Source of the DNA: Desulfobulbus propionicus
Lineage (GTDB): Bacteria; Desulfobacterota; Desulfobulbia; Desulfobulbales; Desulfobulbaceae
Length of the DNA stretch: 64,000 nt
Assembly: GCA_002748755.1 (NCBI GenBank)
Contig: PDTD01000012.1
Location: forward strand, 1 to 64,000
Direction of reading: 5' to 3'
A model generated the notes under the pieces. It was given only the letters and a program-made list of their open reading frames with translations, searched no databases and was not told the origin of the DNA. Of this stretch, positions 5,374 to 61,343 are shown piece after piece (position 1 is the first letter of the stretch; every line of letters starts with the position of its first letter). A program made the translations under genes and the position numbers.

Positions 5374-5581
5374 AGCCCGGATTTTTACCAGCTCAGGCGG
5401 TACAAGGTTCGGGAGTTTTTTCATAATACTTGGGTCTAAATGTTGCCAAAATACTGCCGAAGATGGCACCGCCTGAGCTGAGACAGTTTGTCGAAATTTG
5501 TGACCGCTCACGGACATCACAGACAGCTGGTTTTATCCCTTTTTGTAAATGCAACAAAATGGGCATGAGAAATCCGGGTTA
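5374..5581 (-). repeat. Dispersed 225-bp repeat, copy A
   Basis: A reverse-orientation copy. The ends AGCCCGGATTTTTACC and ATGAGAAATCCGGGTTA are inverted repeats of each other. Inside, CAGCTCAGGCGGT near the left end pairs perfectly with ACCGCCTGAGCTG about 90 bases on. The other half carries the small-hairpin region common to the family. The copy ends 31 bases before the start of the PFK-2-like gene, so it forms that gene's upstream region. A minus-strand frame reading AVPSSAVFWQHLDPS here is repeat sequence, not a gene. Confidence 0.88.
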
Positions 5582-5612
5582 GGTGGCTTTTCGTATCAGC
5601 ATTGGGGAACAG

Positions 5613-6842
5613 ATGAAAAAACAACTGGTCATAGCCATGGTCGGCCTTCCCGCCCGAGGCAAGTCAACCATGGCCAAAAAATTGAGCCGTACTTTGGAAC
5701 TGGACGGCGTTACGAGCCGTATTTTCAATAATGGTGAGTTGAGACGGCGGATGAACACCGTCCCAGGTAGCACCTCCCACCCGGATTTTTTTTCTCCTAC
5801 AAACCCGGAGGGTGTCTCTGTTCGGGAGAAAATTGCAGCCGTTAACCTGCAAAATGCACAACAGTTTCTTGCAGATACTGGGGATGTGGCCATCCTGGAC
5901 GCCAGCAATGTCACCCGGGATCGACGTGAGATCATTCAAAAGAGCTTTCCTGCCATCCCTGTGCTGTTTATTGAGTGCGTGAACGCGGATGATGAGGCCC
6001 TGGTAGCCAATTTGGAGAGAAAAACAGGGCTAAAGGAGTTGAGCCATTACACCAAAGAAGAGGCCTTGGCCAGCTTTGTTCAGCGTATCCAGTACTACGA
6101 ATCCATTTATGAACCACTCTCATTGGAACCTAACAGAATTCTGGTGGACAGCTTTGAAAGCTGTATCCTTCAGGAGCAGATTACCTGCCAGATGCCATAT
6201 TATGATCGGATTCGTGACATTCTGACCACCAGAATCGTACGCAACCTGTTTCTGGCGCGTCATGGTGAGACCTATTTCAATCTTGAAGATCGTATTGGGG
6301 GCAACAGTGAACTCACCGACAGAGGCCGGGAGCAGGCCGGAACATTGGCGGAACATTTTGCAACCCTGCGTATTCCGATTATCTTCACCTCCAATCACAG
6401 ACGGACAATGCAGACGGCCAGGGAAGTAGCCCAACGGCAGGATCACTGTTCCATCATTGCCTTGCCAGAGTTCAATGAGATTCATGGCGGTATTTGCGAA
6501 GGCATGACCTACACCGAGATACGGGATAAGATGCCTGATATCGCCCGTTTAAGGTCCCTGAATAAATATCGCTATGTCTATCCAGAAGGTGAAGGCTATG
6601 CAACCATGGAGGAGCGAGTCCACCGTGGTCTGAAAAAAGTGTTTTACCTGAACAATTATGGCGAAAATATTATGATTGTTGGGCATCGCGCGGTCAATCG
6701 TATGATATTATCCACCTTTCTTTCCCGCCAGGAAGAAGAAATACCCTACATTTACATGCCCCAGGATAGGTACTATCACATTCAGGTGGATCCCCACAAA
6801 CGAATGTTTGAGCTGATTAACTATACCAGTACCCTGGCATAG
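5613..6842 (+). CDS. Bifunctional PFK-2/FBPase-2-like protein
   Basis: 409 residues from the ATG at 5613, which has a GGGGA ribosome site; a GTG 30 bases earlier overlaps the repeat and is less likely. The N-terminal half is a 6-phosphofructo-2-kinase-type P-loop kinase: MVGLPARGKST Walker A, later DASNVTRDRRE, and FIECVNADDE. The C-terminal half is a histidine phosphatase: LARHGETYFN with the catalytic histidine, SELTDRGREQA, EFNEIHGGICEGM, and VGHRAVNRM with the second histidine. In animals and fungi the pair makes and breaks fructose 2,6-bisphosphate; bacterial fusions exist, but their substrate is mostly untested. It is monocistronic, convergent with the next small gene 5 bases away. Confidence 0.85.
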   Translation: MKKQLVIAMVGLPARGKSTMAKKLSRTLELDGVTSRIFNNGELRRRMNTVPGSTSHPDFFSPTNPEGVSVREKIAAVNLQNAQQFLADTGDVAILDASNVTRDRREIIQKSFPAIPVLFIECVNADDEALVANLERKTGLKELSHYTKEEALASFVQRIQYYESIYEPLSLEPNRILVDSFESCILQEQITCQMPYYDRIRDILTTRIVRNLFLARHGETYFNLEDRIGGNSELTDRGREQAGTLAEHFATLRIPIIFTSNHRRTMQTAREVAQRQDHCSIIALPEFNEIHGGICEGMTYTEIRDKMPDIARLRSLNKYRYVYPEGEGYATMEERVHRGLKKVFYLNNYGENIMIVGHRAVNRMILSTFLSRQEEEIPYIYMPQDRYYHIQVDPHKRMFELINYTSTLA

Positions 6843-6847
6843 TCTGC

Positions 6848-23843: not shown

Positions 23844-24067
23844 TAACCCGGGTTTTTCATCAGCTCAGGTGCCACCAGGTTCGGTGGTTTTTGCTACTTC
23901 ATTCTATGTGGATCTGTGTGTTGCCAAAAGGTTGCCGAAGATGGCGTCACCTGCGCGCACCTTTGGTGACCATGAGTCGAAATGTGAGCCTATTCAAGGA
24001 CAGCACATCCCCCTGTTTGGTACTTTTTTCTCAAAGCAGACCAAATGTACATAAGAAATCCGCGCTA
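23844..24067 (-). repeat. Dispersed 225-bp repeat, copy B
   Basis: Reverse copy, 224 bases, starting TAACCCGGGTTTTTCATCAG and ending ATAAGAAATCCGCGCTA, so both outer ends carry TA. The arm CAGGTG pairs with CACCTG, where copy A has CAGGCG with CGCCTG: a paired change that keeps the stem. It lies between the 5' end of the cytochrome gene and the 3' end of ccsB, both on the minus strand, so it would be in their common transcript if they are co-transcribed. Confidence 0.88.
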
Positions 24068-30903: not shown

Positions 30904-31130
30904 TAGTGCGGATTTTCCATGAACAATGCGTCTTATCTGAGAAAAAAGAGACCAAAACAGATGAATGGACTGTTGGTGAGCGGGTTCTCATTTCGATAAA
31001 ATGTGCATCAACACGCAGCCCTGAAGGAACTATCTTCGGCAGTCTTTTGGCAACACATATGCCTCAGTAGGATGAGGTGCTTGAAACACCCGAACCTGGC
31101 GCCACCGGAGCAGATGAGAACTCCGGGGTA
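30904..31130 (+). repeat. Dispersed 225-bp repeat, copy C
   Basis: Forward copy of 227 bases, from TAGTGCGGATTTTCCATG to GATGAGAACTCCGGGGTA. The small hairpin region (TCTTATCTGAGAAAAAAGAG) and the ATCTTCGGCAGTCTTTTGGC segment of the long stem are well kept. It lies 114 bases upstream of the chemoreceptor ATG, on the coding strand. Confidence 0.88.
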
Positions 31131-33275: not shown

Positions 33276-33330
33276 GGACAAGGGTTTTAAGCCCACCCGG
33301 CAGGCCCAGCTGCCGTATTGTTTGAAAAGA

Positions 33331-33554
33331 AGCCCGGATTTCCCATGAAGAATCTGTTTCATTTGAGAAAAAAGTGAAAAAACAGATGGATGAGATGGCC
33401 GTGAGCAGCCTCAAATTCAGACAAACTGTTCATTTAAGATTAGGCCAAGCGGTGCCATCTTCGGCAGTTTTTTGGCAACACCTATACCCAAGTGGAATGA
33501 GGTGCCAAGATACTGCCGAACCTGGTGCCACCTGAGCTGATGAGAAATCCAAGC
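33331..33554 (+). repeat. Dispersed 225-bp repeat, copy D
   Basis: Forward copy, 224 bases, from AGCCCGGATTTCCCATG to TGATGAGAAATCCAAGC. The long stem is easy to see: GCGGTGCCATCTTCGGCAGT on the left and ACTGCCGAACCTGGTGCCAC on the right, imperfectly complementary, around a loop with CCAAGTGGAATGAGG. It starts 55 bases after the chemoreceptor stop. Confidence 0.9.
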
Positions 33555-34434
33555 GAAGGGTTCCTGATTATTATTTCGCTGTTATTATGAACTCAGTTGC
33601 TTCAGCTTTCATGTAACTGGTAAGGAGCACCCTTTTCAAGGTGGTATGCATTTTTTACATGATTCAAGTAAATACCCTGAAAGTACCGTCAAGAAAAAAG
33701 CTTTCCATTACCGCTGTTAAGAGTGTCTTTAACAAGAAGTATATTGCAATATACTGGTAGAAAATCGCTATTCTTTCAATGCGTTGGACATTTTTGACTT
33801 TTCTGCATTTTTTCCAGGGCAAACACTCTAGTATCATAGCAATAAATGGCGTAAAGAGGGGGCTTGGATATCTATGCATGCCACTCTGTACGAAAAAGAT
33901 CGAATTTAACAATGGCTAAAAGAAAATTTGGGTTGTACTTTTGAAATAGTCAAGTCCTCTAATGATACAAAAAGATGCAAAATACTTCCTCGACATTTGG
34001 TAGTAGAAAAGAGATATTAGGTTTCTTAATAGTTTCATTTGATTGAATGAACATTTAAAAAACTCCATATAATAAGCGACAACATCATGGATATCGGTAT
34101 GATGATATTGCTCTCAATAGGATGCTGCCAGTTTAATCTCTAACTTATTATTCATTATCAAACATTCCCTAAGAGAAAATACTCTTGTGCACTACCAAAA
34201 ATTTACACCTAGTACATCCTGATCTAATGATCATTCTATGATCCCAACGCAGTGGTGATTTATTGTACAAATCCAACAACTATTGTTGTTCAATTTATAT
34301 ACAGGGTCGTTTGTATATGAGTTATTTAACCATGGGTTTGTACACTAGGAAACTGGAAATGGCAAAAATATTCTTTATTTCCCAATAACTGGAAATATAT
34401 GGGATTTTGATTCAGATCTAAAACGAGAAGAACA
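33555..34434. other. A/T-rich non-coding region before the Crp/Fnr gene
   Basis: About 880 bases, clearly more A/T-rich than the flanking genes. The only frame of size (33664-33912, minus, 82 codons) lacks motifs. The right end contains two copies of AACTGGAAAT (34350 and 34387 region) and an FNR-box-like palindrome just before the regulator gene. It may be the remains of lost DNA or a large control region. Confidence 0.5.
34407..34420. promoter_or_regulatory. FNR-box-like palindrome upstream of crp/fnr gene
   Basis: TTGATTCAGATCTA matches the Crp/Fnr-family box TTGAT-N4-ATCAA at nine of ten specified positions. It ends 14 bases before the ATG of a Crp/Fnr regulator, a position suited to self-repression. 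The assignment is inferred; no experimental site is known to me. Confidence 0.45.
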
Positions 34435-35097: not shown

Positions 35098-35189
35098 TAG
35101 TGGACGCATGAGGATGCTGCCCGCTTAGGGGGAGCAAAGATATAGCCGCAGCTCCTGCGCTCTGTGGTGAGCAATCCCGGTTTTACCTC

Positions 35190-35413
35190 AATCCATATTT
35201 CGCATGAACATTTTGTCTTATTTGAGAAAGAAGACACAAACAGATGTATGGAATGTCCCTGAGCAGGAGCACATTTCAACAGACTGTCCACCAAAAATCG
35301 GCCCAGGCGGCGCCATTTTCAGCAGTGTTTTAATAGCATAAAGAGGGTGCTATAATACCCGCCCAAAAAACTGAACGCCTGACAACGTCTTCACTGATGA
35401 GAAATTCGAGCTA
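35190..35413 (+). repeat. Dispersed 225-bp repeat, copy E
   Basis: Forward copy of about 224 bases, more diverged: left end ATCCATATTTCGCATGAACA, right end GATGAGAAATTCGAGCTA. The TTTGTCTTATTTGAGAAAG hairpin region and the GGCGCCATTTTCAGCAGT stem segment are recognisable. The long stem's right arm is damaged. It sits between two convergent genes. Confidence 0.8.
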
Positions 35414-36676: not shown

Positions 36677-37068
36677 GGGTAGTGTCTCCTGAGTGACCAC
36701 GGGCTCTTACCTGAACCCATCAGTCAGATGTCTTGTGTTTTATGTTGTCTTTTCACATAATGTGAGGCCGAATTTCTTGTGAACAAAGGGTAGAAATGTG
36801 GGACTGCTTATGCCATCACAGAAATGTATTCTGCTCTTATCTTGCAAAAAAAAAGGACCTTGTCCATTAAAAAAAGAATAATTGACATCATGTGTTAGCG
36901 GAGTCCGGGTCAGCTTTTTCGCTATAATATACCACCTGGTGGAAAAAATAAAAACTGACAAGATGGTAGTTCTGGACTCGTGCAGCCAGAATCCATGGGG
37001 ATTGGTGCGTGATTGTAGGGCCTGGTTTGGGAAAAAGCCTGGTAGTTTTCCAAGGTTCGCCTTAGATA
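36677..37068. other. Intergenic region with repeat-terminus fragment
   Basis: About 390 bases. A 25-base fragment (36762-36786, GGCCGAATTTCTTGTGAAC) matches one end of the dispersed family, without the remainder. Just before it, CACATAATGTG is a perfect short palindrome. TATAAT with no good -35 box occurs at 36924. No gene is supported. Confidence 0.45.
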
Positions 37069-41562: not shown

Positions 41563-41789
41563 TATCCCGGATTTCTCATTACCATTTTATTTCATTGGAG
41601 AAAAAATAGATACAAACAAATGGATGTGATGTCCGTAAGCGCTCTCTCGTTTCGGCACAAGGCCAACCAACGCGAAGCCCAGGAAGGACCATCTTCGGCA
41701 GTCTTTTGGCAATGCAAAGATCCAGGTAGAATGAGGCACCAAAAGCTCCCGAACCTGGCGCCACCGGAGCTGATGGGAAATCCATTCTA
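41563..41789 (+). repeat. Dispersed 225-bp repeat, copy F
   Basis: Forward copy, 227 bases, from TATCCCGGATTTCTCATTAC to GATGGGAAATCCATTCTA. GACCATCTTCGGCAGTCTTT and the right arm CTCCCGAACCTGGCGCCACC form the long stem. It begins 13 bases after the receiver pseudogene stop. A frame giving PSSAVFWQ and LPNLAPPELM here is repeat sequence. Confidence 0.9.
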
Positions 41790-42516: not shown

Positions 42517-42532
42517 CTTGTCCGCTCCGGTC

Positions 42533-47922: not shown

Positions 47923-47946
47923 TCCACACTCCCTCTTCAAAGGGGG

Positions 47947-48525: not shown

Positions 48526-48582
48526 AAATACGTGTATGTTAGGGCCGTGAGTGTGTAGTGTGTCTGGCGTGAGCTGTGTACC

Positions 48583-48613: not shown

Positions 48614-48842
48614 TAGGCCGGATTGTTCATGAACATGTTGTCTCATTTGAAAAAAACGAGACAAAAACTGATGGACGTGGTGTCCGTAAGCGGTCTCGCA
48701 TTTCGATACAATGTGCACCAACGCTTAGCCCTTCTGCTGCCATCTTCGGCTGTATTCAGGCAACACATATAGAGCCTAGTTGAATGAGGTACTAAAAACT
48801 ACCGAACCTGACACCGCCTGAACGGATGAGAAATTCGGGCTA
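48614..48842 (+). repeat. Dispersed 225-bp repeat, copy G
   Basis: Forward copy of 229 bases, from TAGGCCGGATTGTTCATGAA to GATGAGAAATTCGGGCTA. TTGTCTCATTTGAAAAAAAC, GCCATCTTCGGCTGTATTC and the right arm TACCGAACCTGACACCGCC are all recognisable. It lies upstream of the DUF4390 gene, in divergent orientation to it. Confidence 0.9.
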
Positions 48843-48877
48843 GATGGAAAGGTTCCCGCAGGGCAGAGGTCAACGAT

Positions 48878-49048
48878 GATTTCGATAGTACCTTTTTTGC
48901 TGTCAAAGCAGTGCCGAAGCTGGTGCCGCCTGTGTAAACCTTTGGTGAACATTTGGGAGAGTTTTTCTCTCCATTAGTTCTTTCCTAACGATTTGTTTAT
49001 CTTTTCTATTTTTGATTTCCACAAATTGTTCATGAGAAATGCGGGCTC
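48878..49048 (-). repeat. Degraded reverse copy of the dispersed repeat
   Basis: The piece GCAGTGCCGAAGCTGGTGCC near the left and GTTCATGAGAAATGCGGGCT at the right end match a reverse copy; the middle is no longer alignable by eye. The right end coincides with a terminal repeat. It is a worn copy or a composite. Confidence 0.5.
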
Positions 49049-49461
49049 AATTTCTGTCCCTATATGTCCTTTGGGCTGTCTCAATAAACGTATATCACCT
49101 CGTTAGGCCTTTCTCTGCTGTGGCTCCATCACCCAATCCTCGGTGCAGCTTGAACCAGCATTGATACTGACACAACATCTGAGTCCAACATGTGCGCAAT
49201 ACTGGTTCTTTTACTCCAGACCCAAAGAAAGGAGTGGATCAGATAAAAAAGTGTGGCATATTTTCTTCAGACCTTCCATACTACCTGATCGTCTCTTTTT
49301 TGTCCATGGTTAGAGCCAGCAGAAGAACGCTTTCTGGCTTTCTGACCCCAAACTCATTGGGATTGCAGGTGGCTGTAAATTTTGCTAGATAGAGCAATAT
49401 TTTTGACAAAACCCCAGCCAAGTTACGCCACCCAGCGGCCGAAAGAAAGGCCGTTACCTGA
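49049..49461. other. Non-coding region between repeat copies
   Basis: About 410 bases with no supported gene. A short plus frame (49192-49392) lacks motifs. No promoter is obvious. Together with the copies on both sides it forms a 1.2 kb repeat-rich block between the DUF4390 and rfbB genes. Confidence 0.4.
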
Positions 49462-49677
49462 AGCCCATATTTTGGTGAACCTTTTGTCGTATCTGAAAAA
49501 AGTAAGAAACATACAGGTGGTGGGAGTACGCAGTTGCGTAATCTAACACAAGGTGCGCCTAATGTCAGCTGAGGCGATACCATCTTCGGTAGTCTTTTGG
49601 CGATCCCGAATACGCAAGGTGCGTGCGGTGGCCAAAACGAGCGAATCTGGTGAGGTCTGAGCTGATGAGAAATTGAA
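49462..49677 (+). repeat. Dispersed 225-bp repeat, copy H
   Basis: Forward copy, about 216 bases, from AGCCCATATTTTGGTGAACC to GAGCTGATGAGAAATTGA, more diverged than most. GCTGAGGCGATACCATCTTC and GTCTTTTGGCG show the long stem. It ends 48 bases upstream of the rfbB start and forms its upstream region. Confidence 0.8.
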
Positions 49678-49725
49678 GAAGGTGAAGGATCAATACGTTG
49701 ACTTAATACAAGGTAATACAGCAGA

Positions 49726-50796: not shown

Positions 50797-50820
50797 GCGA
50801 TTTCGATGAAGGTGTGCACC

Positions 50821-51372
50821 ATGCTGATAGAAAAGACAGCCATTCAAGACGTACTTGTCGTGACCCCAAAGGTGTTTGGCGATGATCGCGGTTTTTTCTT
50901 TGAAAGTTTTAACCTCCGTGAATGGCGGGAAAAGAGCGGGGTCACCTTGCCCTTTGTTCAGGAAAACCATTCCCGGTCTAAAAAAGGCGTTCTGAGGGGG
51001 CTGCATTATCAGATTAAGCAGCCACAGGGAAAATTGGTCCGGGTGGTGGCAGGCGAAGTGTTTGACGTGGCTGTGGATCTGCGTCGATCCTCTCCAGATT
51101 TCGGGCAGTGGGTCGGCATCAGGCTCTCAGCAGAAAATAAAAAGCAGTTCTGGATACCGCCGGGATTTGCCCATGGATTCGTGGTGCTGAGCGAGGCTGC
51201 TGAATTTTTGTATCACACCACTGATTACTATGCACCGGAGCATGAACGGGCCATTGCCTGGAATGACGCGGACCTTGCCATTGACTGGGGATACGATGGA
51301 GAGCCGAAGCTTTCTGAAAAAGACAGCCTGGCGTTTCCTTTCGGCCAGGCCGAGGTCTATGAGGAGATGTAG
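50821..51372 (+). CDS. rfbC: dTDP-4-dehydrorhamnose 3,5-epimerase
   Basis: 183 residues from the ATG at 50821 with ribosome site AAGGTG; an ATG five codons earlier has none. DDRGFFFESFNLREW, VQENHSRSKKGVLRGLHYQ (the catalytic His), FDVAVDLRRSSPDFGQWVG, IPPGFAHGFVVLSE and the Tyr in YHTTDYY are the family's key motifs. It epimerises the 4-keto sugar made by RfbB. Its stop codon TAG (51370-51372) is also the first three bases of repeat copy I, so the reading frame ends exactly at the element boundary. Confidence 0.96.
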   Translation: MLIEKTAIQDVLVVTPKVFGDDRGFFFESFNLREWREKSGVTLPFVQENHSRSKKGVLRGLHYQIKQPQGKLVRVVAGEVFDVAVDLRRSSPDFGQWVGIRLSAENKKQFWIPPGFAHGFVVLSEAAEFLYHTTDYYAPEHERAIAWNDADLAIDWGYDGEPKLSEKDSLAFPFGQAEVYEEM

Positions 51373-51590
51373 CCTGGATTTCTCATGAATATTTTCCCCC
51401 TTTTGAAAAAATAGAGAAAAACTGAGGTGGGTGATGTCCGGGGGCAGGCTCAAATTTGGTCAAACTATTCCCCACCGCTTCCCAGGCGGTACCATCTTCG
51501 GCAGTATCTTGGTGGCACCTCTACCCTGGTAGAATGCGGTGCCCAAAATTCCCGAACCAGGCGCCATCTGAGCTGAGGGGAAAGCAGGGC
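51370..51590 (+). repeat. Dispersed 225-bp repeat, copy I
   Basis: Forward copy, about 221 bases, starting TAGCCTGGATTTCTCATGAA. Its right end is worn (GAGGGGAAAGCAGGGC). GCTTCCCAGGCGGTACCATC then TTCGGCAGTATCTTGGTGGC and, on the other arm, TTCCCGAACCAGGCGCCATC form the long stem. Its first three bases are the rfbC stop codon. It lies between rfbC and the convergent RNB gene. Confidence 0.87.
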
Positions 51591-51615
51591 GAGTAGGTGG
51601 TCTTGCCTGCTGTCC

Positions 51616-53616
51616 TCACCACTCTACCTTGAGAACATTATCAAGCGGATTGACATTGACAAGACGAATTTTAATCATATCTCCCGGGTCAACCGGAAAA
51701 TGGGGGTTGGGGGCAAGGTCGATATCAAACAGGCAGTCTGTCAGCAACAGGTTGACCCGTTTACTTCCCCTCCCGACCACCAGGGCATTCATTTTACTGC
51801 CGATTTTCGGTTCCAGATAACGTAAAATCCAATACCTGTGTCGTTGTTGTCGCACGCTGTTGGCTCTGCTGAGCTTCTGCTGAATGGTGCCGGTAAAGGA
51901 TTTGCACTCTTCGCTGGAAAAAAGGATACCATTACCACGGAGCATGTTACTGATTTGATGCTGCATGGCCAGATCAAGGAAACGCCGTATGGGCGAGGTG
52001 ATGGTGGTGTAGCTGTTGAGGCCCAGACCGCTGTGCGGCTTGGGATGGGAGGTCAGCTCACCACGGGAGAGAAAGCGTCTTTGTAGGGCAATGTCCTGCA
52101 GGCTGTTGTTGATGCCTTCTATGATGCGTTTTTTGGGAGGTGGCTGGGAGCGGAAAATGCCTGGAGCACCCCGGCTTGCCAGGAAATCAGCTGCCACGCC
52201 GTTGGCCAGAATCATGAATTCCGAAACCAGACTGCGGGCAGCTGTGTCCATGGGCGAGAGATGCACCTGGATATCATCCCTGTCCCGGATATCGATATTT
52301 ACGTCAGGGAAGGGAAGCAGCAGGGCGCCGTTGTCCACTCGCCGTTGTCGCAACAGTTCCTTGACTTTGTTCATCATGGCCAGTTCGGGATCTGTGGCGA
52401 TGAGTGTGTCAGCTTCCCGGTAACTGATCTGACGTTTGACCTGAATCACAGAAGGCACGATGCGGGTGTTCATAACCTGCCCATTTTCGGACAGCGTCAC
52501 GAGAAAACTGATGGCTGGTCTGATTTTTCCGAGGATCAGGCTGCATACCCCTAAAGATAGCGTCGGGGGAAGCATGGGAATGTGGCCTTCAGGGAAATAA
52601 AGGCTCGTCCCCCGCTCCTGGGCCTCGGCAAACAGGGCTCCGCGTGGGGATACGAAGTAGCTGACATCGGTTATGTGGATACCAGCAAGGTACCCCCGTT
52701 CCAGTCGCTCGACGTGGAGGGCGTCATCATAATCGCGGGTAAAGGTCCCATCTATAGTGATCAGGTTCAGCTCCCGGAGATCTCTGCGCTTAGGATCAGT
52801 CAACAACTCTTCTGCTGAAGGTTCTGTGAAGGAGTCGGCCCGTTGGAGACATTCTTCTGAAAAATCCACTGGCTGATCGGCCCTTCGTAATGGCAGGTTT
52901 TCATCACGATCCCACTTGCCGGCCCGTACAAGAATCCTGTGCCCCACATGGGGAGCGTTCAAGCCTGCCTGCTTGAGCAGATTCTTGATCAGCTTACTCT
53001 CCTTGGCATCGTTGCCCAGAAGCTCATATTCCTCCAACCAGGAGAGACATTTCTCCATGTCGGCCCATTGGCTTAGAGTCACGGTGTCGCCGTCCAGTAT
53101 CCGCCGCAGGTAGAGGGCCCCCTGTTGCAAGAGCTGTTCTTTTTCCTGCTGTTTCTGATACTCGTATTGAAGGTGTTCCACCTGTTCGGGAGTATGGGCA
53201 ATGATACGTTCGTTTTTGTATTTGAAATAAAACGGATCCGCTAATACGCTTCTGAGAAATGCGGCAAGGTCATCGTCATCAGGCGGATGCCCGGTGATCA
53301 GTTCCGTCAGAAAGGCGGTGGAAAAAATCAGGTGCTCTTCCTCGCAAACGATCTGCCATAATTCTTCCAGATTAAAATCTGCTACTCGTTGCAGCCGCCT
53401 TTCAGCTGTCTCCCTGAGCAGGGCCATGATCTCTTCCCTGCTTCGATCTGTGCTGTATTGTTGTTCTGTAGCAATGAATACCCGTGCCCGGGGCAGGGTG
53501 AACTCTTTGCCATTTTGATTGATGATATGGAGTCGTTTTTCCTGGACCTGGGTGATAAGCGCACAAACACATTTTCCCCCATCCAGATACTCAATGATGC
53601 TGCCTGCACTGATCAT
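51616..53616 (-). CDS. RNase II/R-family exoribonuclease (RNB domain)
   Basis: 666 residues. A small N-terminal part ([36 protein letters not shown]) and a winged-helix-like region precede the RNB domain. The catalytic core begins [21 protein letters not shown], which supplies the acidic metal ligands, and includes [18 protein letters not shown] and [13 protein letters not shown]. The C-terminal part has [14 protein letters not shown] and an S1-like end with [13 protein letters not shown]. It degrades RNA from the 3' end. It is closer in size to RNase II than to RNase R (over 750). No ribosome site is evident at the annotated start. Confidence 0.88.
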
Positions 53617-53891
53617 AGATCTAACACGTTGCGAAGTTTGTGGGTCATGGTAAGGTACAGTGGATAGCAGGAATAGGAGCCTTTGTCATTATTTTCTTAC
53701 TTCTATTTTTTTTCATTGCTTCGAATTCGTCCCTATTTTGAAGGGAGTCTTTTGGTTCAAATACAAGCTATCTGCAACAGCTTGTGACAGGCATGTTGTC
53801 GATATTCCGATGATAAATACCTGAAGGTCCCGCACGAATAGGATAAAGAACTCTGACCATCAACCAGGTTTGTCCAGACAGCTATACTCGT

Positions 53892-54851
53892 ATGGAACAC
53901 ATTCAATCTTCACCAAGCCAGGATCCAATACCATATCGTTCCGGTGTGGTTGCCATTGTTGGGCCGCCTAATGCTGGTAAGTCGACTTTGCTCAACTGCT
54001 TGCTAGGACAAAAAATTTCCATTGTTTCACCCAAACCCCAGACCACCAGAAACCGGATTGCCGGGATCCTGACTGGCAAGGCATATCAGATACTTCTCCT
54101 GGACACCCCAGGCCTGCATAAGGCCCAGGATCGAATGAACCAGGAAATGGTCCAGGTGGCCCTGGAAAGTGTCGACGAAGCCGATATGGTACTTTTTGTC
54201 GAGGACAGTTACGCCATGACCGACAAACGTCGGGATACAATCCTGGAGCAATACCAGGGTTATTTTGATCAAATCAATGTACCGGCCGTTCTTGCCTTGA
54301 ACAAGGCTGATCTGGTGGAGCAGGAGGCTCTTCTGCCGCTTACTCGGTGGTTTGTGGACCTGCATGGGTTTGCAGAAGTCCTGCCCGTATCCGCACTGCA
54401 CGATCAGGGAACAGAGCTGTTGGTCGACAAGATCACTGGCCTGTTACCGGAAGGCCCTCAATATTATCCTGACGATATCCCCACCGATGCCTCGGAACGC
54501 TTCATAGTGGCGGAAATAATCCGGGAAAAAGTTTTTTTACTGACCAAGGAAGAGGTACCCTATTCCACCGCCGTGGTTATAGACTCTTTTCAGGAAACCG
54601 ACTCGCATGAGCCAATCATTATTTATGCCACTATTCTGGTGGAACGAAGTTCCCAAAAAGGAATCCTGATTGGGTCTAAAGGGGCCATGTTGGCCAAAAT
54701 ACGCAAACAGGCAAGCCAGGATATCGTACGCTTGCTGGGGGTCCCTGTGCGTCTGCATTTGTGGATCAAGGTGCGTAAAAACTGGACGGGGAATGAAAGG
54801 ATGCTTAGGGAACTCGGACTCACCCGAAATGCTCATGAACATCGTGTCTGA
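53892..54851 (+). CDS. era: Ribosome-maturation GTPase Era
   Basis: 319 residues. GTPase motifs: GPPNAGKST (G1), a G2 T in PKPQTTRNRI, LLLDTPGLHK (G3), ALNKADLV (G4) and VSALHDQG (G5). A C-terminal KH domain (RSSQKGILIGSKGAMLAKIRKQASQDI and VRLHLWIKVRKNWTGNERMLRELG) binds the 3' end of 16S rRNA. Era is essential in small-subunit maturation and cell-cycle coupling. It is monocistronic here, with no close partner such as rnc or recO. The start ATG at 53892 lacks a strong ribosome site. Confidence 0.96.
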   Translation: MEHIQSSPSQDPIPYRSGVVAIVGPPNAGKSTLLNCLLGQKISIVSPKPQTTRNRIAGILTGKAYQILLLDTPGLHKAQDRMNQEMVQVALESVDEADMVLFVEDSYAMTDKRRDTILEQYQGYFDQINVPAVLALNKADLVEQEALLPLTRWFVDLHGFAEVLPVSALHDQGTELLVDKITGLLPEGPQYYPDDIPTDASERFIVAEIIREKVFLLTKEEVPYSTAVVIDSFQETDSHEPIIIYATILVERSSQKGILIGSKGAMLAKIRKQASQDIVRLLGVPVRLHLWIKVRKNWTGNERMLRELGLTRNAHEHRV

Positions 54852-55029
54852 ATTAAAAAAATATATCAGAAAAGCAGCTGGTTAGAAAAGAAATACTTTG
54901 TGGTCAATTGGTCCAGAATGTGCGCCAATACTCAAGAGTGGCTACATCAGAGGCGCTCGTTTTAGTGCACGCATCCTGCTGGGATATCGGAGTTCTCCAA
55001 CAGCCACCAAAGAGGGAATATCGTGCCCG

Positions 55030-55114
55030 TTGCTGAGATTGCTCACGGATGGCACATTCATCTGTTTGGGATTTTTTTACCAATGAGACAAAATGCTCCT
55101 AAAAAACGGGTTAG
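55030..55114 (-). repeat. Truncated reverse copy of the dispersed repeat
   Basis: TTGCTCACGGATGGCACATT, CATCTGTTTGGGA and CCAATGAGACAAAATGCTCC follow the end half of a reverse copy, ending AAAAACGGGTTAG. The other half, with the long stem, is not present; upstream sequence (54852-55029) cannot be aligned. Confidence 0.6.
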
Positions 55115-55186
55115 AGTTTTTTTAAAGCAGGTCAACATCTTCATCAGCAACATACATGGGGCGCAGCAGCCTCACTACTGGCTTCT

Positions 55187-56521
55187 CTACCGGCTGCCAA
55201 CAAGAGTAAGGCTTTTAATAATGAACAGGGCTGTCCGCAATTGGTTGTCCTGCGCCAACCGCCTGGCAGCGAGCGCTTGTGCTTCCTGTTCCTTATTCAA
55301 TTCCAACTCTTGGGTATCATCTGACGGCCTATCATCTGCTTTTGCGTCATTGACAAAATGACCTGGCAGATCCTTTTCCTTGATGTGGTTCTCCTGCTGG
55401 TCCGTTTCCTTTTGACTTTCGGCCTTGTTGAAGGGCACCGTGAGATCGGGTTGGATGCCTGTTGCCTGGATGGAATCACCACTGGGCGTATAATACCTGG
55501 CTGTTGTCAGACGTATACCTGCCCCGCCGGGGATAGGCAGGACTGTTTGCACTGATCCTTTACCAAAGGTACTTGTTCCCAGGATAATGGCTCTTTTATG
55601 ATCCTGGAGTGCACCGGCAACAATTTCAGCACCACTGGCAGAGCCGTCGTTGACCAAAACGACCAGGGGGTATGTGTTTTCGGACCCGGTGCTGTGCGCC
55701 TCATACGTCATTTGTTCCTGGCCGTGGCGTCCTCGAGTGGAAACAAGCAGCCCCTGGTTTATGAAGATGTCGGAGATCTTGACAGCCTGATCCAATAAGC
55801 CGCCTGGATTATTACGTAGGTCCAGGACCATTCCTTGTATAGGTTTTTTTTTCTTTGCCTGGTTCAGTTGCTGGCGAAAATCACGAGTAGTGGTGGCCTG
55901 GAAATGGGAGATTCGCATGTACAGGATGCCAGGTTCCAACTCAAATGAGCGTACCGATTGGAGTGGAATGGTATCTCTTTCCAGTTCAATATCCCGCATC
56001 CCCTGCCAGGCTTTCCTATAAATGGACAGGACAACGGTTGTTCCCTTAAAGCCTCTGAGTTTTTGTACTGCTTCCATCAGTGAGAGGTTCTTAGTGATTT
56101 CCCCGTTAATGCGAATGATTTGGTCTCCAGGTTGAATACCCTTTTTTGCTGCCGGAGAGCCTTCGATGGGGGTAATGACGGTCAGAACATTATCTCGTAT
56201 GGTTATTTCCAGTCCGATACCGTTAAAGCTGCCCTGCGTCTCTTCTTGCAGATCTGCAAAGTCTTCCGAAGACATATATGCGGAGTGGGGGTCAAGGGCA
56301 CTTAACATGCCTTTGATGGCTCCGGTAATGACCTCTTCTGTGTCTATCTCGTCCACATATTGTTCTTGTAGCAGGTTGAGAATGTTGGCAAATGTCTCCA
56401 ACTGCTGGTAGGCGTCCCTGTTTTCAGTAGAATCATCGGCCGTAGCCGGGGTATAGGCAAACAGCGTCCAGGTGAGGACGACTAAAAGGAGTATGTAGAT
56501 TTGTTTATGAAAAGAGGACAT
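55187..56521 (-). CDS. ctpA: Carboxy-terminal processing protease (S41, CtpA)
   Basis: 444 residues from the ATG at 56521, followed by a signal peptide (FHKQIYILLLVVLTWTLFAYTPATA). ITGAIKGMLSALDPHSAYMSSEDF is the conserved cap/leader; the PDZ domain is ~85-165 (GIGLEITIRDNVLTVI, AAKKGIQPGDQIIRINGE); the S41 domain has MVLDLRNNPGGLLDQAVKISD, NDGSASGAEIVAGALQDHKRAI (Ser nucleophile in GSAS) and LGTSTFGKGSVQTV (the Lys base). It trims periplasmic proteins. Another start, 30 bases upstream, is possible. It belongs to the ftsE-ftsX-envC-ctpA gene string, but two repeat copies separate it from envC. Confidence 0.94.
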   Translation of the reverse strand: MSSFHKQIYILLLVVLTWTLFAYTPATADDSTENRDAYQQLETFANILNLLQEQYVDEIDTEEVITGAIKGMLSALDPHSAYMSSEDFADLQEETQGSFNGIGLEITIRDNVLTVITPIEGSPAAKKGIQPGDQIIRINGEITKNLSLMEAVQKLRGFKGTTVVLSIYRKAWQGMRDIELERDTIPLQSVRSFELEPGILYMRISHFQATTTRDFRQQLNQAKKKKPIQGMVLDLRNNPGGLLDQAVKISDIFINQGLLVSTRGRHGQEQMTYEAHSTGSENTYPLVVLVNDGSASGAEIVAGALQDHKRAIILGTSTFGKGSVQTVLPIPGGAGIRLTTARYYTPSGDSIQATGIQPDLTVPFNKAESQKETDQQENHIKEKDLPGHFVNDAKADDRPSDDTQELELNKEQEAQALAARRLAQDNQLRTALFIIKSLTLVGSR

Positions 56522-56602
56522 GAGACAGCCTGGAGGAAAAAGGAGCTTCATTTTCTGTCGTGGCCCGCGCCATACATTAACACTATGCTGACAGGTCCGG
56601 TC

Positions 56603-56829
56603 TCGCCTCGGATTACTCATCAGCTCAGGCGATGCCAAGTTCGGTAGTCTTTGAGTAACTCAGTATTCTTGGGTGTCTGGGTTTTAAAAAATCTGCTGAA
56701 GATGGTACCGCATGGGCTGAGTGTTGGCGCACAGTTTGTAGAAATTTGAGCCCGCTCACGGAAAAAATATCTACTTGTTTTTATGTGTTTTTCTCAAAAA
56801 AGACAATATATTCATGAGAGATCCGGGCA
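56603..56829 (-). repeat. Dispersed 225-bp repeat, copy J
   Basis: Reverse copy, 227 bases, from TCGCCTCGGATTACTCATCA to TTCATGAGAGATCCGGGCA. It shares the derived block GGTACCGCATGGGCTGAGTG with copy K next to it, but not with the others, so J and K are sister copies. It lies 82 bases upstream of the ctpA start. Confidence 0.9.
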
Positions 56830-56987
56830 GGGAGAATTGAATCGTGCACGGAGCCCTCTGCTGCGGCATCAGTACGTATACTGAAGCGGACGATTTAAAA
56901 CGTAGTACAACATTTTAAAGTAACTGGAAACAGAGAGTGTGGCAATGTATTTTTTACAGGGCCTGTGTCGTGGGTTGCAAGCATGCC

Positions 56988-57210
56988 TCGCCCGGATTGC
57001 TCATCGGCTCAGGCGGTGCCAGGATGGGCAGTTTTTGGCCCTTCATTCCACTTGGGTACTGGGTTTTACAAAGACTGCCGAAGATGGTACCGCATGGGCT
57101 GAGTGTTGGTGCCCTTGTTGTTGAAATGTGAGCCCGCCCATGGACAGCACATCCATCTGTTTTGTCTCTTTTTTCTCACATGAGACAACAAGGTCGTGGG
57201 AAATCCGTGT
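56988..57210 (-). repeat. Dispersed 225-bp repeat, copy K
   Basis: Reverse copy, 223 bases, from TCGCCCGGATTGCTCATCGG to GTGGGAAATCCGTGTTCG. It carries the same derived segment as copy J (GGGTTTTACAAAGACTGC versus GGGTTTTAAAAAATCTGC). It ends 30 bases before the envC stop. J and K together form most of the 718-base gap between envC and ctpA. Confidence 0.9.
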
Positions 57211-57239
57211 TCGTGTGGATGGTGGAACCTCCAGAAGAC

Positions 57240-58406
57240 CTATTCGGAGGAGAATGCGTCGGGACACAGCCAGGGGAGCGGGTCTTCGGCTGTGGTTCCT
57301 TTGCGTATTTCAAAATAGAGTCCCCGGCCAAAAAGGGTGGCTATGTCGCCGGTTGTGGCGATGACCTGTTCCCGCTGCACGGTGTCGCCCTGTTGCACTA
57401 CAAAGTTCTCCAGTCTTGAGGTCACGGTAAAATAATTATAGCCATGGTCGATGATAATAGTCCTGCCGTAGCCTCGCATATACCCGGCAAAAATAACCTT
57501 GCCGGCTAAGACGGCATGTACCTTTGCCCCATCCCTTGTCTTGATGGTTATGCCTTGTGATACCTTTTTTTGCAAAGAATCACTGTCTTCCTTGCCGAAA
57601 CGGGAAAGCAGGATACCTTTTGCAGGCGGTTGCAGCGTCCCCATGTTGCGTACAAATACTTTTTTCTTGTTTTCTTCTTTCTTTTGCAGCCTGGCAATCT
57701 GAGCGGTAAGATCCTGCTCCGCTTTCCGCATTTCTTTCAAAGCCAGTTGATAGAGACTTTTTTCTGTTTTTGCTTTTTGCAGGAGCTGGTTTTTTTGCCT
57801 GGAAATATACAGCAGGGTCTTTTTTTCCTCTTCTGCGTTATGCAGAAAACTTTCCTGTACGCTTTTTTCCAGCTCATGGGCCTGCTTGGCCTGGAGAATG
57901 GACTGTTTTCTTTTTCGATACGCGCTGAAAACAGTGCTGTCATAGGAGACTAAATGTTGAAAGGAGTCATTAAATATAAGGAGGTCCGGGATGGATGTAC
58001 TGGAAAAGGCAATCCGTAAGAAACCATTGTTGCCCATGAGATAATATGCTCGCAAACGTTTTTCCAAATGGGCTTGCAGAGCTTTTTTTTCCGCATGAAT
58101 GGCATCGATTTCAGCCGCCCGGCTCTCAATGAGTCTTTCCTGCTCTCTAATTTTGTCCTGGATGGCCAGAACTTTTTCCTGTTGTGCAGCTATGTTGTCA
58201 TCTAACCGTTCAAGCTGGTCCAGCAGGCTGGTCTGTTTGCGATCACTGTCCTGTATTTTAGCGCTTTGATACTTCATTTCCTTGTGGAGCTTGCTGATAG
58301 TCAGCCTATGGCGCTTAATGGGCTGGGATTCCCCTGCCAGACAGTGGGAGGTTTCTGGGCAGCCAGCAAGGGTTGGTATGATAAGGAGAAGGGGTATCAG
58401 GCGCAT
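57240..58406 (-). CDS. envC: EnvC-like amidase activator (degenerate M23 domain)
   Basis: 388 residues from the ATG at 58406. A signal peptide with a lipobox-like end (LLLIIPTLAGC) is followed by a long coiled coil (~40-250) with many Lys/Glu/Gln. The C-terminal LytM-type domain (AKVHAVLAGKVIFAGYMRGYGRTIIIDHGYNYFTV) is recognisable, but its zinc ligands are lost: the usual HLHFE reads GLYFEIRK and the first His site is changed. That is what EnvC shows: no hydrolase activity, but activation of cell-wall amidases at division under FtsEX. It starts about 10 bases after ftsX. Confidence 0.9.
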   Translation of the reverse strand: MRLIPLLLIIPTLAGCPETSHCLAGESQPIKRHRLTISKLHKEMKYQSAKIQDSDRKQTSLLDQLERLDDNIAAQQEKVLAIQDKIREQERLIESRAAEIDAIHAEKKALQAHLEKRLRAYYLMGNNGFLRIAFSSTSIPDLLIFNDSFQHLVSYDSTVFSAYRKRKQSILQAKQAHELEKSVQESFLHNAEEEKKTLLYISRQKNQLLQKAKTEKSLYQLALKEMRKAEQDLTAQIARLQKKEENKKKVFVRNMGTLQPPAKGILLSRFGKEDSDSLQKKVSQGITIKTRDGAKVHAVLAGKVIFAGYMRGYGRTIIIDHGYNYFTVTSRLENFVVQQGDTVQREQVIATTGDIATLFGRGLYFEIRKGTTAEDPLPWLCPDAFSSE

Positions 58407-58416
58407 GAGGATCGAC

Positions 58417-59322
58417 TTACAGGTTGACCATTTTTCGTGTTGAAGAAAAGCTACCCAGTGAGCAGAGCAGGGTGGCAGCACAGATAAGCAGGACAACGGA
58501 CTGCATGGAGAGAAAGGTGAAGGGAAAAAAACGAAACAAAGTCGCTCCGGTAAATCGCAGATCTATCCAGGAGTAGAGCAGAAAGAGAGCCCAGACTCCC
58601 AGACCTGCTCCCAGCAGCCCCTGCATTGCTCCTTCAATGAGAAAGGGGGTGCGGATATAGTTATTAGTTGCCCCCACCAGTCGAAGCAAATCCAATTCTT
58701 TTTTCCGGGCCAGTAAGGTCAAGCGAATGGTGTGTGCAACCATGAATGTCGTGGTCATAACAAGCAGGACTCCGGAAAGAACGACAATAATGCGAATAAT
58801 CTGGATGAATGAGTAGAAGCGTTCTATCCACTCCTTGCCATACTGTACCTTGAGAACGCCGGGCAGGGTCTGCAGATAATCCGAAAAGCGTTTAATTCTG
58901 GAAAGACTGTCCAGCGTTTTGAAAGGATAAATCTCTATGGAAGGCGGCAGAAAGGTTGTGGGAATATCAACGAGAATATCTTTGTCCTCTCCCAGCTGAT
59001 CGCTGAATCTGTCAAAGGCCTCGGTTCTGGAGAAAAAGACAATTTTTTCCACCTGATCAAATTTGAGGATTTTTCGCCGATACTCTTCCTTGAGAGGGGG
59101 AGTCGGCTCCTCATCCAGGTAGATCACCAGCCGAAGGTCATCACCAAGTTTCTGGCTGACCTGCATGGCGTTAATATAAATGAGATAGAAGAAAGAAAAA
59201 ATCAAGACCGACAGGGCGACGGTGACAAGGGTCATGAACTGGGATTTCCAGGTCAGCTGCATGTTGCGGCCTGTATGGCGCAGGGCTGTTGAAACGAGGC
59301 TCATAGTTAACTGATTGCTCAA
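58417..59322 (-). CDS. ftsX: Cell division protein FtsX
   Basis: 301 residues: a first helix (FMTLVTVALSVLIFSFFYLIYINA), a large periplasmic loop (~60-175) with the usual LRLVIYLDEEPTPPLKEEY start, then three helices (IIVVLSGVLLVMTTTFMVAHTIRLTLLA, LGVWALFLLYSW, SVVLLICAATLLCSLGSF). RKKELDLLRLVGATNNYIRTPFLIEGAMQGLLGAGLG is the conserved coupling segment contacted by FtsE. FtsEX signals through EnvC to switch on septal murein amidases. Its start overlaps the ftsE stop by 4 bases (ATGA). Confidence 0.95.
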   Translation of the reverse strand: MSNQLTMSLVSTALRHTGRNMQLTWKSQFMTLVTVALSVLIFSFFYLIYINAMQVSQKLGDDLRLVIYLDEEPTPPLKEEYRRKILKFDQVEKIVFFSRTEAFDRFSDQLGEDKDILVDIPTTFLPPSIEIYPFKTLDSLSRIKRFSDYLQTLPGVLKVQYGKEWIERFYSFIQIIRIIVVLSGVLLVMTTTFMVAHTIRLTLLARKKELDLLRLVGATNNYIRTPFLIEGAMQGLLGAGLGVWALFLLYSWIDLRFTGATLFRFFPFTFLSMQSVVLLICAATLLCSLGSFSSTRKMVNL

Positions 59323-60068
59323 TAGGATTGAATAGTGTTGGCCGTCTCGTACTGGATGCCGTCGGGCTGCGGGGCTGCACGTACGTTCTCAACTTGCCGA
59401 CCATACCTGAGTTCTATAATCCTGCGTCCCCCCTGCTGGTAAATATCTCTGTCGTGTGTTGCGATGAGCAGGGTCGTCCCCTTGTTATTCATCTCGTTGA
59501 AAAGGTCCATGACACGCCCAGTCGTTTCCGCATCCAGGTTTCCGGTGGGCTCATCAGCAAGAATAATGTCAGGTTGATTGGCCACGGCCCGGGCAATGGT
59601 GACCCGCTGTTGTTCTCCTCTGGAAAGTTCGGCTGCAAGGGTATGTTTTTTTGCGGAAAGACCGAGTCGTATCAGAAGTTCCTTGGTCCTTTTGTGAATG
59701 AAGGAACGCTTGCGGTATACGACTTCCATGGCTATGGCAATATTGGCGGCCACAGTCCTCTCCGGAAGAAGTTTGAAATCCTGGTAAACCATACCGATTT
59801 TTCGGCGAAGTCTATAGAGCCTGTTTCGGGGTATTTTGGCAATATCCAGGCCAGCCACTTCGATCATGCCTTTGGTCGGTTTTTCTATCCTGCTGATCAG
59901 TTTGAGCAGGGTGGTTTTCCCTGAACCGCTGCGGCCGATAAGATAGACCATCTCACCTTTGTTGATTGAGAAGGTTACGTCTTCGAGGGCATGGACATCC
60001 GGGTTATAGGTTTTGGAAACCTTGATGAGGTCCATCATGGGCTGTGTGGGGTTGCTCGTTTGCGTCAT
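59319..60068 (-). CDS. ftsE: Cell division ATP-binding protein FtsE
   Basis: 249 residues from the ATG at 60068 (an ATG 10 codons later is closer to the usual FtsE length, a start at 60128 gives 20 more). GRSGSGKTTLLKLI is Walker A, MVYQDFKLLPERTVAANI the Q-loop region, LSRGEQQRVTIARAVANQPDIILADEPTGNLD the signature and Walker B, and IATHDRDI the switch His. This is the ATPase partner of FtsX. The signature reads LSRGEQQ in place of LSGGQQQ, normal for FtsE. It heads the gene string, with a 400-base upstream region. Confidence 0.94.
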   Translation of the reverse strand: MTQTSNPTQPMMDLIKVSKTYNPDVHALEDVTFSINKGEMVYLIGRSGSGKTTLLKLISRIEKPTKGMIEVAGLDIAKIPRNRLYRLRRKIGMVYQDFKLLPERTVAANIAIAMEVVYRKRSFIHKRTKELLIRLGLSAKKHTLAAELSRGEQQRVTIARAVANQPDIILADEPTGNLDAETTGRVMDLFNEMNNKGTTLLIATHDRDIYQQGGRRIIELRYGRQVENVRAAPQPDGIQYETANTIQSY

Positions 60069-60465
60069 CTCTTCAGTATCAGATTCTACCAGGATAAGGA
60101 GTAGCTCGTGCGTCTTTGCTGATAGCATACCTAAATCTTATTTTTTTTTCAGGTTTTTATTGCATTGCAAAGGGCGGAGGCGTTAGTAAAAGGGATGAAA
60201 AGAAGAAGCCAAAAACTACCTGGACACCAACATGTTGGTCCTCTCTGTTTGCAGCTCCGCATTTTTTACGGGCTTGGCCTACAGATCAAAAGATCGTATT
60301 TGGCTGCAGATCATTTTTTCTACTTAATTGTTTTTATATTATATTTTTTTATTTTCTACAAATCTTTATGAGGAGTTCAGGCTGGTGCGCCTGGGCGGGA
60401 GATGATGGGCGCTTCATAAGAGGGCGCTGTGAGAAGATGCAACATCAGTTGCTGTGGGGAGATGT
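60069..60465. other. Divergent intergenic region between ftsE and gph
   Basis: About 395 bases, A/T-rich in the middle (TTTTTATATTATATTTTTTT near 60331-60350) where a promoter could lie, but no pair of boxes convinces me. The short plus-strand frames (60116-60484, 60165-60371) have no motifs. Confidence 0.4.
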
Positions 60466-61137
60466 ATGCACTACAAGGCAGTGATTTTCGATCTTGATGG
60501 GACCTTGCTCGACACACTTCAAGACCTTGCCGATGCGGCCAATCAGGCTCTGGCGGATCTGGGTTTTCCCAGGCACCCGGTCGATGCCTACCGGTTCTTT
60601 GTTGGCAGTGGCCTGAACACCCTGATTGTCCGAATACTGCCTGAGGGAAAGAGGGACGAGCAGACGCAAAGGCAGACCGTAGAGAGATTTAAACAACGGT
60701 ACAGGCAAAACTGGAAAGCGACATCTGCGCCCTATGTCGGGGTACCGGCAATGCTTGATCAGCTGCAAGCCAACGGGGTCAAGTTGTGTGTTCTTTCCAA
60801 TAAACCGCATGATTATACCACCCTCTGCGTGCAGGAACTGTTGCCTCAGTGGACTTTTTTTCAGGTTCTGGGACAACGATCGGGTGTACCGAAAAAACCT
60901 GATGCCCGGGGTGCTCTTGATATTGTCCATTGTCTGGGGCTTCAAAAAAGGGATATCCTCTATGTCGGAGACACAGCCATTGATATGCAGACAGCGGCAA
61001 ATGCCCAGTTGGACAGCGTTGGCGTATTATGGGGCTTTCGCTCTGCAGAAGAGTTACAGGCGGCAGGCGCTCGGTATTTGATCAGCTCACCAGAGGAACT
61101 TGTTGGCATCGTTAAATCTGGCCCGGATTTCTGTTGA
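60466..61137 (+). CDS. gph: Phosphoglycolate phosphatase-like HAD hydrolase
   Basis: 223 residues from the ATG at 60466, after GGGGAGATGT. HAD motifs: VIFDLDGTLLDTL (motif I, both catalytic Asp), VLSNKPHDYTT (motif II, Ser/Asn), KKPDARGAL (Lys, motif III) and ILYVGDTAIDMQTAANAQLDSVGVLWGF (motif IV). It resembles Gph, which clears 2-phosphoglycolate after DNA repair. The last six residues (SGPDFC) and the TGA stop are encoded within the left end of repeat copy L, so the natural C-terminus was probably altered when the element arrived. Confidence 0.9.
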   Translation: MHYKAVIFDLDGTLLDTLQDLADAANQALADLGFPRHPVDAYRFFVGSGLNTLIVRILPEGKRDEQTQRQTVERFKQRYRQNWKATSAPYVGVPAMLDQLQANGVKLCVLSNKPHDYTTLCVQELLPQWTFFQVLGQRSGVPKKPDARGALDIVHCLGLQKRDILYVGDTAIDMQTAANAQLDSVGVLWGFRSAEELQAAGARYLISSPEELVGIVKSGPDFC

Positions 61138-61343
61138 ACAACTTTTCTCGGTTGAAAAAAGGGAAAAAAACGGATGGGTGCGCTGTCCTTGAGCCGGTTC
61201 ACATTTCGACAAATTGTACCCCAACGCTTAGGCCAGGCGGTCCCGTCTTTGGCAGTATTTTAGTAGCCCATATATCCAAGGAGAATGGGTTTATAGTAAC
61301 TCCTGTACCTGGCACCACCTGAGCTGAGGAGAGTTTCGGTCTA
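61119..61343 (+). repeat. Dispersed 225-bp repeat, copy L
   Basis: Forward copy, 225 bases, starting TGGCCCGGATTTCTGTTGAA and ending GAGAGTTTCGGTCTA. Its first 19 bases encode the final gph codons and stop. AGGCCAGGCGGTCCCGTCTT and TGTACCTGGCACCACCTGAG are the long-stem arms. It lies between gph and the DUF445 gene. Confidence 0.9.

Follow-up and report, generated by a model that had tools for sequence, protein, structure and literature searches.

Many bacterial miniature inverted-repeat transposable elements (MITEs) fold well, and whether such a fold serves the element, its host, or nothing at all is an open question. We addressed it with a stretch of 64,000 nucleotides of Desulfobulbus propionicus (GenBank assembly GCA_002748755.1, contig PDTD01000012.1, positions 1 to 64,000; hereafter the window), in which an earlier reading made from the letters alone (the sequence-only reading) had noticed at least twelve near-complete copies of a structured intergenic repeat of ca. 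225 bp. These repeats are a real and very abundant family of gene-less MITEs in a sulfate-reducing lineage. Very probably, the family is mobilized by an IS1380-type transposase acting in trans, inserts into YTAR sites, and has its fold selected while the elements are mobile. Moving lineages have kept this fold, and resident copies have almost lost it, which separates selection for mobility from selection for a host function.

Ends, target duplication, and a probable IS1380 partner

The element reads CCCGGATTTCTCATGA...TCATGAGAAATCCGGG, is about 219 bp long with 16-bp inverted ends (the terminal inverted repeats measured 16–19 bp), and sits between duplicated 4-bp YTAR quartets. A 19-mer end close to the one given by the sequence-only reading occurs, with at most three mismatches, at 274 sites in the whole of the window's own genome (G000) and, as a reversed pattern, at none. 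The inverted ends of that reading stand, but the outer TA, which it had counted as part of the element, is a piece of the duplicated target; within one copy, the bases on either side of TA are the same at the left and the right end. Identical quartets flank 17 of 60 distinct near-complete copies from the own genome, where permutations average 4.3; this set is biased to well-preserved copies, many from best-match lists. In other genomes, they flank 18 of 33 copies, selected for ends with at most three mismatches each (permutation mean 6.2). Both counts have p 5e-5, the floor of the test, and a control placed four bases further outward gave 1/60. As had been claimed, no transposase is encoded, the copies being without coding capacity. 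With inverted ends, target duplication, no transposase gene, a length below about 300 bp, many copies, and ends shared with an autonomous element, i.e., IS1380 insertion sequences (ISs) in genomes G143, G015, and G153, the repeats have the features of MITEs. The sequence-only reading had left the choice between MITEs and large repetitive extragenic palindromic (REP)-type elements; the former holds, and the 4-bp duplications and the 16–19-bp ends speak against the latter, for which a transposase was not searched for.

The partner was sought with PF13701 in 21 genomes. IS1380-family elements with both ends, 1.57–1.71 kb long, were found in the three genomes named above, all of the same order. 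Their ends are CCCGGATTTCTCATTA or close variants and, like those of the MITE, lie within 4-bp YTAR duplications: CTAA/CTAA and CTAG/CTAG in G143, CTAA/CTAA around an intact 477-residue frame in G015 (where a second copy showed the left end only), and TTAG/TTAG around a broken gene in G153. Two G015 proteins are IS1380 family transposases (NCBIfam NF033539) at E 2e-112 and 5e-112. IS and MITE coexist in G143, which has three oriented MITEs in five further stretches around its ends and split transposase genes. The end pattern is more frequent among genomes that have this transposase clade (9/16 vs 54/257, p 0.0015), a count to which the IS itself adds. The sequence-only reading had proposed to look for a full-length IS with matching ends in the same genome; the own genome yielded IS1380 pieces only, and the full-length elements are those in other genomes. 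Two of the pieces adjoin an end of this type, and in one of the two the IS1380 copy runs off contig C26.

A hairpin lies just inside the left end of IS1380 (z -4.9 to -7.2 in four elements, with differing left hairpin sequences), and the right ends fold more weakly (z -1.2 to -5.0); the MITE may thus copy the layout of the IS ends. Its interior showed no similarity to the IS beyond the ends, which gives no support to an IS origin of that interior. MITEs need not have an IS-derived interior. One unit of 694 bp in the own genome (C20:130514-131207) contains an IS1380 fragment and was considered as an intermediate between IS and MITE; it was set aside as probably a chance join because its flanks differ (CTAG vs TTAA).

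Two side observations concern the transposases. In three G143 copies of IS1380 (L127 2256-2330, L139, and L251/L252), the gene is split at the same point into two overlapping frames, and both copies read have a run of eight A; the G015 relatives have a single frame; frameshifting, slippage, or a shared indel are possible. Genome G152 gave 20 matches, all with one and the same 493-residue open frame of weak PF13701 similarity (E 8.5e-7; L135, L145, and L152). No MITE-type ends were found at the three G152 loci examined, and this frame probably belongs to another IS group.

The fold in moving lineages and in resident copies

The consensus of the own-genome copies folds at -93.9 kcal/mol (z -9.45) into paired ends with one hairpin on the left and a longer one on the right. 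A third, tiny hairpin also sits on the paired ends of the element, and the internal hairpin set of the sequence-only reading was thus found again. Single own-genome copies fold less well (median -61 kcal/mol), and RNAalifold alone recovered almost no common fold from them (-1.2 kcal/mol), which agrees with a decay of the resident copies. We compared covariation in two alignments. Alignment A1 holds 40 of the 60 distinct own-genome copies, mostly the better preserved ones and including 10 of the 12 in the window. Of the 40 elements in alignment A2, 30 belong to three species that a genome search assigned to the genus of the window, and 10 come from other genera (by origin, 32 of 34 oriented elements of a sequence scan, two being omitted for length, plus 8 from other genera). 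In the resident own-genome copies, 80.1% of cells were paired vs 79.5% expected if the two sides had changed independently.

In A2, 91.7% of cells were paired vs 85.6% in shuffles, 30 of 65 pairs showed compensated changes on both sides, and 162 cells were double-changed vs 50 in shuffles. None of 500 shuffles reached any of the five measures, and structures slid along the alignment fell to 29–39%; because the A2 rows are related and the structure was taken from one of them, these shuffles overstate significance. With a single element for each of eight lineages, there were still 22 compensated pairs vs 7.9 and 36 double-changed cells vs 10.9, and the ten elements from other genera gave 27 pairs vs 14.3 on their own, each with 0/1000 shuffles as high. 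As judged from this covariation, the fold was kept between species and genera while elements moved and is disappearing from resident copies. Compensation between lineages that is hardly seen among residents points to selection during mobility rather than on a host function of single insertions.

The apical loop of the right hairpin is variable in its own way. It can hold an insert of ca. 17 bp, GGTAAGCGTAGACTCC or its complement, in one orientation in L175, L177, L178, L179, and L200 and in the other in L208, L214, L217, L226, and L193. The insert is repeated two times in L217 and three times in L193, a case of loop inversion and of a minisatellite inside a MITE. This unit occurs in some copies of Desulfogranum marinum DSM 2058 (G003) and of Desulfobulbus sp. 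CSMAG_517 (G004) and was not seen in the window copies.

An A-C mismatch on one strand is a G-T mismatch on the other, so the mismatches left in the stems can tell the strands apart. On the aligned strand of A2, counted without the first three end positions, A-C outnumbers G-U by 110 to 31, whereas the decaying copies have 174 vs 197. The bias persists when counted per lineage and pair (70 vs 24, p 2e-6) or by pairs (29 vs 10, p 0.003). In line with it, folding is more stable for the reverse strand in 39 of the 40 A2 elements (median 20 kcal/mol), in 54/60 own-genome copies (median 9.5 kcal/mol), and in all three from G143. Such strand-biased mismatches, which are wobble pairs on one strand, speak against a double-stranded cruciform as the target of selection and against simple correction between arms. 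They suggest, less strongly than the covariation supports the fold, that selection acts on a single strand, be it RNA or single-stranded DNA.

Promoter-like hexamers occur on the presumed functional strand of 21 of 40 elements, mostly at one place, compared with 4 on the other strand and 10.6 in shuffles; as the elements are related, an internal promoter is only a lead. It is a tentative and rather improbable extension that the MITE makes its own structured RNA from the strand opposite to the one called forward, with a multi-hairpin fold needed for its spread with the IS1380 transposase. The candidate roles of such an RNA, recruiting the transposase or shielding the transposon from read-through, are unproven. 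If true, this would be a gene-less transposon that needs an RNA in addition to its ends. Because of the strand bias, an RNA role can be tested in D. marinum DSM 2058.

Insertion sites, age of the copies, and competing explanations

The sequence-only reading had stated that no recognizable gene is broken. In fact the copies touch genes more than claimed, with ends that supply stop codons or contain the ends of open reading frames (ORFs). The stop codon of ORF 50806-51372 (dTDP-4-dehydrorhamnose 3,5-epimerase) is the TAG of the end of the copy at 51370, after which a convergent RNB-domain gene follows (51616-53616). The end of the copy at 5373..5581 supplies the TAA stop of ORF 5579-5935(-), and the HAD-hydrolase ORF 60454-61137 terminates within the left end of the copy at 61119. 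(ORF 5579-5935(-) has 118 residues, no Pfam match, and may not be a gene.) Across the own genome, frames of 100 codons or more have the TAA or TAG of the target as their stop at 12 of 60 sites; among control YTAR sites the count was 154 of 1753, or 8.8%, which gives an odds ratio of 2.6 and p 0.0066. Of the rejoined sites, 19/60 lie within a frame of at least 150 codons vs 71% of control sites. An element that inserts at a stop codon leaves the stop intact, since the duplicated TAA or TAG stays in front of it, and the enrichment is likely a result of selection. The orientation of elements relative to neighboring genes is unbiased, with 28 vs 21 in the own genome and 18 vs 13 in A2.

Gene order around positions 41401-61400 of the window is kept in G001, G002, G003, G004, and G006 at ca. 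64–76% identity in most pieces, and spacer lengths were estimated from protein matches, which at this divergence are not base-exact. The spacer at the 51370 site measures 243 bp here and 15 bp in G006, 4 bp in G002, 112 bp in G003, and 117 bp in G004, which has a 119-bp unit with end-like sequences at this place. For the pair at 56603 and 56988, 601 bp here correspond to 61 bp in G001, 191 bp in G006, 35 bp in G003, 214 bp in G004, and about 0 bp in G002, and for the 61119 site 323 bp here correspond to 111 bp in G001 and about 0 bp in G002. The check for orthologous sites lacking the element, proposed by the sequence-only reading, gave spacers that by these estimates are too short for a copy at 51370 (G006 and G002), at 56603/56988 (G001, G002, and G003), and at 61119 (G001 and G002).

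The substantial divergence between copies described before is real. Among the 60 own-genome copies, the closest pair is ca. 83% identical (none above 83.5%), and the median identity to the consensus is 82%. As to the family having "been active over time", all copies in this genome look old and, by these identities, like an old burst rather than continuing activity. Recent-looking pairs exist elsewhere, i.e., at 98% identity in D. marinum and at 95% in a metagenome-assembled genome (MAG) labeled D. propionicus DOLJORAL78_47_9 (G005), which we take to be from a dolphin mouth; the D. marinum pair would be an indirect sign of movement.

In the mechanism that we propose, an IS1380-type DDE transposase supplied in trans would have moved the MITEs into YTAR sites. 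Insertions would be tolerated in spacers and at stop codons, where the duplicated TAR before the element would preserve TAA or TAG. Selection on the fold would act while the element is mobile and not on resident insertions, and what is selected would be a single-stranded form, in all likelihood an RNA made from the strand opposite to "forward". Another account of the same MITE, which is possible if distinctly less probable, takes the fold as an unselected by-product of palindromes that are renewed by template switching or intramolecular arm repair. Near-perfect arms suit this account, as does the apical-loop insert in both orientations and in tandem, which marks the palindrome as a mutation hot spot, and no function has to be assumed for an element whose arms are symmetrical. 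Correction between arms should, however, be strand-symmetrical, which is at odds with the leftover mismatches in A2 and with the better-folding reverse strands, and hardly any arm correction is visible in the resident own-genome copies. With one element per lineage the asymmetry shrinks to 19 vs 7 (p 0.03; 0.07 allowing for base composition), which weakens this objection and is also a first point against selection on a single strand.

We give very little credence to the copies being host regulatory elements, e.g., terminators or mRNA-stability elements kept for neighboring genes. They do lie mostly outside long frames and directly behind stop codons more often than by chance (12/60), and their consensus folds 9.5 standard deviations below shuffles. 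Yet in the own genome a change on one side of a pair is almost independent of the other side, orientation is unbiased, and several orthologous spacers in related species are too short for a copy. Least credible of all is the REP-type reading, with a Y1 transposase (RAYT) as the mover; a minimal palindrome of 40 bp in which two ends are joined (L072) could be cited for it. Y1 transposition is not known to make a target duplication, nor are REP elements known to have one, but 4-bp duplications flank the elements studied here, the 40-bp unit included (TTAG/TTAG), and their ends match IS1380.

Several further observations weigh against IS1380-driven spread with a fold selected during mobility. No intact partner transposase was found in the own genome, and a transposase of this clade was absent (E up to 1e-20) from the end-rich genomes G003, G004, and G005, where we infer the mobilizing enzyme. 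Three open IS1380 genes in G058, a genome with few copies, are not of this clade and had no end pair in the fetched flanks. What MITE and IS share is about 19–20 bp of end only. Pairing in the resident copies is still slightly above expectation, the five observed values being reached by 19 to 52 of 500 shuffles. The missing orientation bias means that host read-through does not explain a strand-specific selection. At the 51370 site the G001 spacer is 400 bp long, and the spacer with the copies at 48614 and 49462 (1200 bp here, 812–1034 bp in four relatives) is not clearly empty.

Copies in the window, distribution, and known systems

All twelve copies named by the sequence-only reading were recovered at their places and strands (E 3e-26 to 2e-63) by a profile built from 26 own-genome copies, which overlap in part with the twelve; on reversed, not complemented sequence the best E was 0.21. 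The copies are about 209–229 bp long, have ends and interior in common, and their flanks do not align. Forward copies lie at 30904..31130 (E 2.7e-61), 33330..33556 (E 2.2e-63; 86% to the typed consensus, the highest among the window copies given), 35189..35413 (diverged, E 1.4e-36), 41563..41789 (E 3.2e-61), 48614..48842 (E 4.3e-63), 49461..49680 (E 3.4e-26, the lowest score of the twelve; the match covers 49464-49673 and the ends are extrapolated), 51370..51592 (also from the profile search), and 61119..61343 (E 7.5e-51). On the reverse strand are those at 5373..5581 (E 7e-48; 209 bp with internal deletions), 23844..24067 (E 2.2e-57; TTAG at both sides), 56604..56830 (E 6.9e-52), and 56988..57212 (E 2e-60). 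The additional fragments that had been mentioned correspond to three extra reverse-strand matches, i.e., truncated copies at 48899..49047 (model 2-151, E 3.5e-10) and 54947..55106 (model 10-196, E 1.2e-14) and a weak one at 36776..36865 (model 18-108, E 7.7e-4) that may be chance.

To gauge abundance, we sampled 464 kb of the 2.0-Mb assembly, made up of the window and 20 other pieces of 20 kb each, which held 103 non-overlapping matches at E <1e-3, 37 of them near-complete, covering 3.2% of bases. The window is rich in complete copies, with 12 near-complete ones in 64 kb; outside it there were 22 matches and 6.25 near-complete copies per 100 kb. By extrapolation from this sample, a 2-Mb genome would carry about 440 copies or fragments. 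A consensus search of 96 genomes matched 7, the own genome included. Of 257 genomes of the order, 54 carried the end pattern (at most two mismatches), and its reversed form gave 6 matches in 5 genomes. When one genome per species was scanned for the right-end 22-mer, 52 stretches matched, 49 of which come from records named Desulfogranum, Desulfobulbus, Desulfobulbaceae, Desulfocapsaceae, or Desulfosediminicola. The other three are alphaproteobacterial (two Labrenzia), coding-like, and without a second end nearby, and we dismissed them as chance-looking. The one 22-mer searched in viral contigs had no match there.

Some genomes and variants deserve mention on their own. With 2.0 Mb (91% completeness) and 1.3 Mb (68%), respectively, the own genome and the G005 MAG are small compared with three members of the same genus (4.8–5.8 Mb at 100%), a possible case of genome reduction that goes along with a heavy MITE load; D. 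marinum, at 5.4 Mb, is likewise rich in MITE ends. A second subtype in the own genome has only the right half in common with the element (L172 7830-7966, L167 10664-10802, L159 15203-15341, and L158 11055-11207), its similarity starting with ATTTCTCCAA or a near variant. Minimal units of two ends facing each other were seen in G095 (L072 2644-2683, 40 bp, flanked by TTAG/TTAG) and G058 (L067 2531-2584, 54 bp).

None of 4227 Rfam 15 families scored above its gathering cut-off in the window, and a relaxed threshold at eight related loci gave one weak match, outside the element. Hammerhead-like letters CTGATGAGAAA at the right end were followed up and rejected, as they are mostly the IS end itself and the relaxed Rfam search gave nothing relevant. 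Among the matches listed for IS1380 and MITEs and for Desulfobulbus or Desulfogranum MITEs or repeats, no publication on this family was found, going by titles and the opening of abstracts. The sequence-only reading had called the repeats a candidate for something undescribed; judged from Rfam and from these literature matches, with ISfinder outside the comparison, this is likely rather than shown, for a family of a known kind, i.e., structured, IS-attributed MITEs.

To our knowledge, IS1380 is an addition to the partners of MITEs. IS1380 itself is related to the eukaryotic piggyBac, and one paper uses it as piggyBac outgroup. The IS1380 family (NF033539, PF13701) resembles the MITE in its ends, its 4-bp YTAR duplication, and the hairpin inside its left end, and differs in that the MITE has no gene and shares no more than those 19–20 bp. 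ISPsp9, a published IS1380 member, is given as 1718 bp with 21/18 inverted repeats and a 5-bp repeat (PMC4133298).

Other known systems offer further parallels. RUP of pneumococcus, repeated 108 times, is tied to IS630-Spn1 by common ends and target (PMC2229807) and differs from our element in its TA target, its IS630 partner, its 107 bp, and its sequence, compared with YTAR and IS1380 here. ERIC/RU-1 and Correia/NEMIS are short MITEs whose transcripts fold into long stem-loops and are described as affecting neighboring mRNAs (PMC2229807); theirs is an end-to-end stem-loop with TA ends, whereas several hairpins branch from the end stem of the MITE described here, which is known from DNA alone. 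CIR of Caulobacter and Brucella has two hairpin arms and a linker conserved between genera and is listed without terminal inverted repeats and with a GANTC motif (PMC2229807). Our MITE is like CIR in its conservation between genera and its hairpins and unlike it in its clear inverted ends and duplications. Finally, a MITE of Porphyromonas gingivalis with an internal minisatellite (PMC4596501) has, in another organism, internal tandem units like those of ca. 17 bp in some D. marinum and CSMAG_517 copies.

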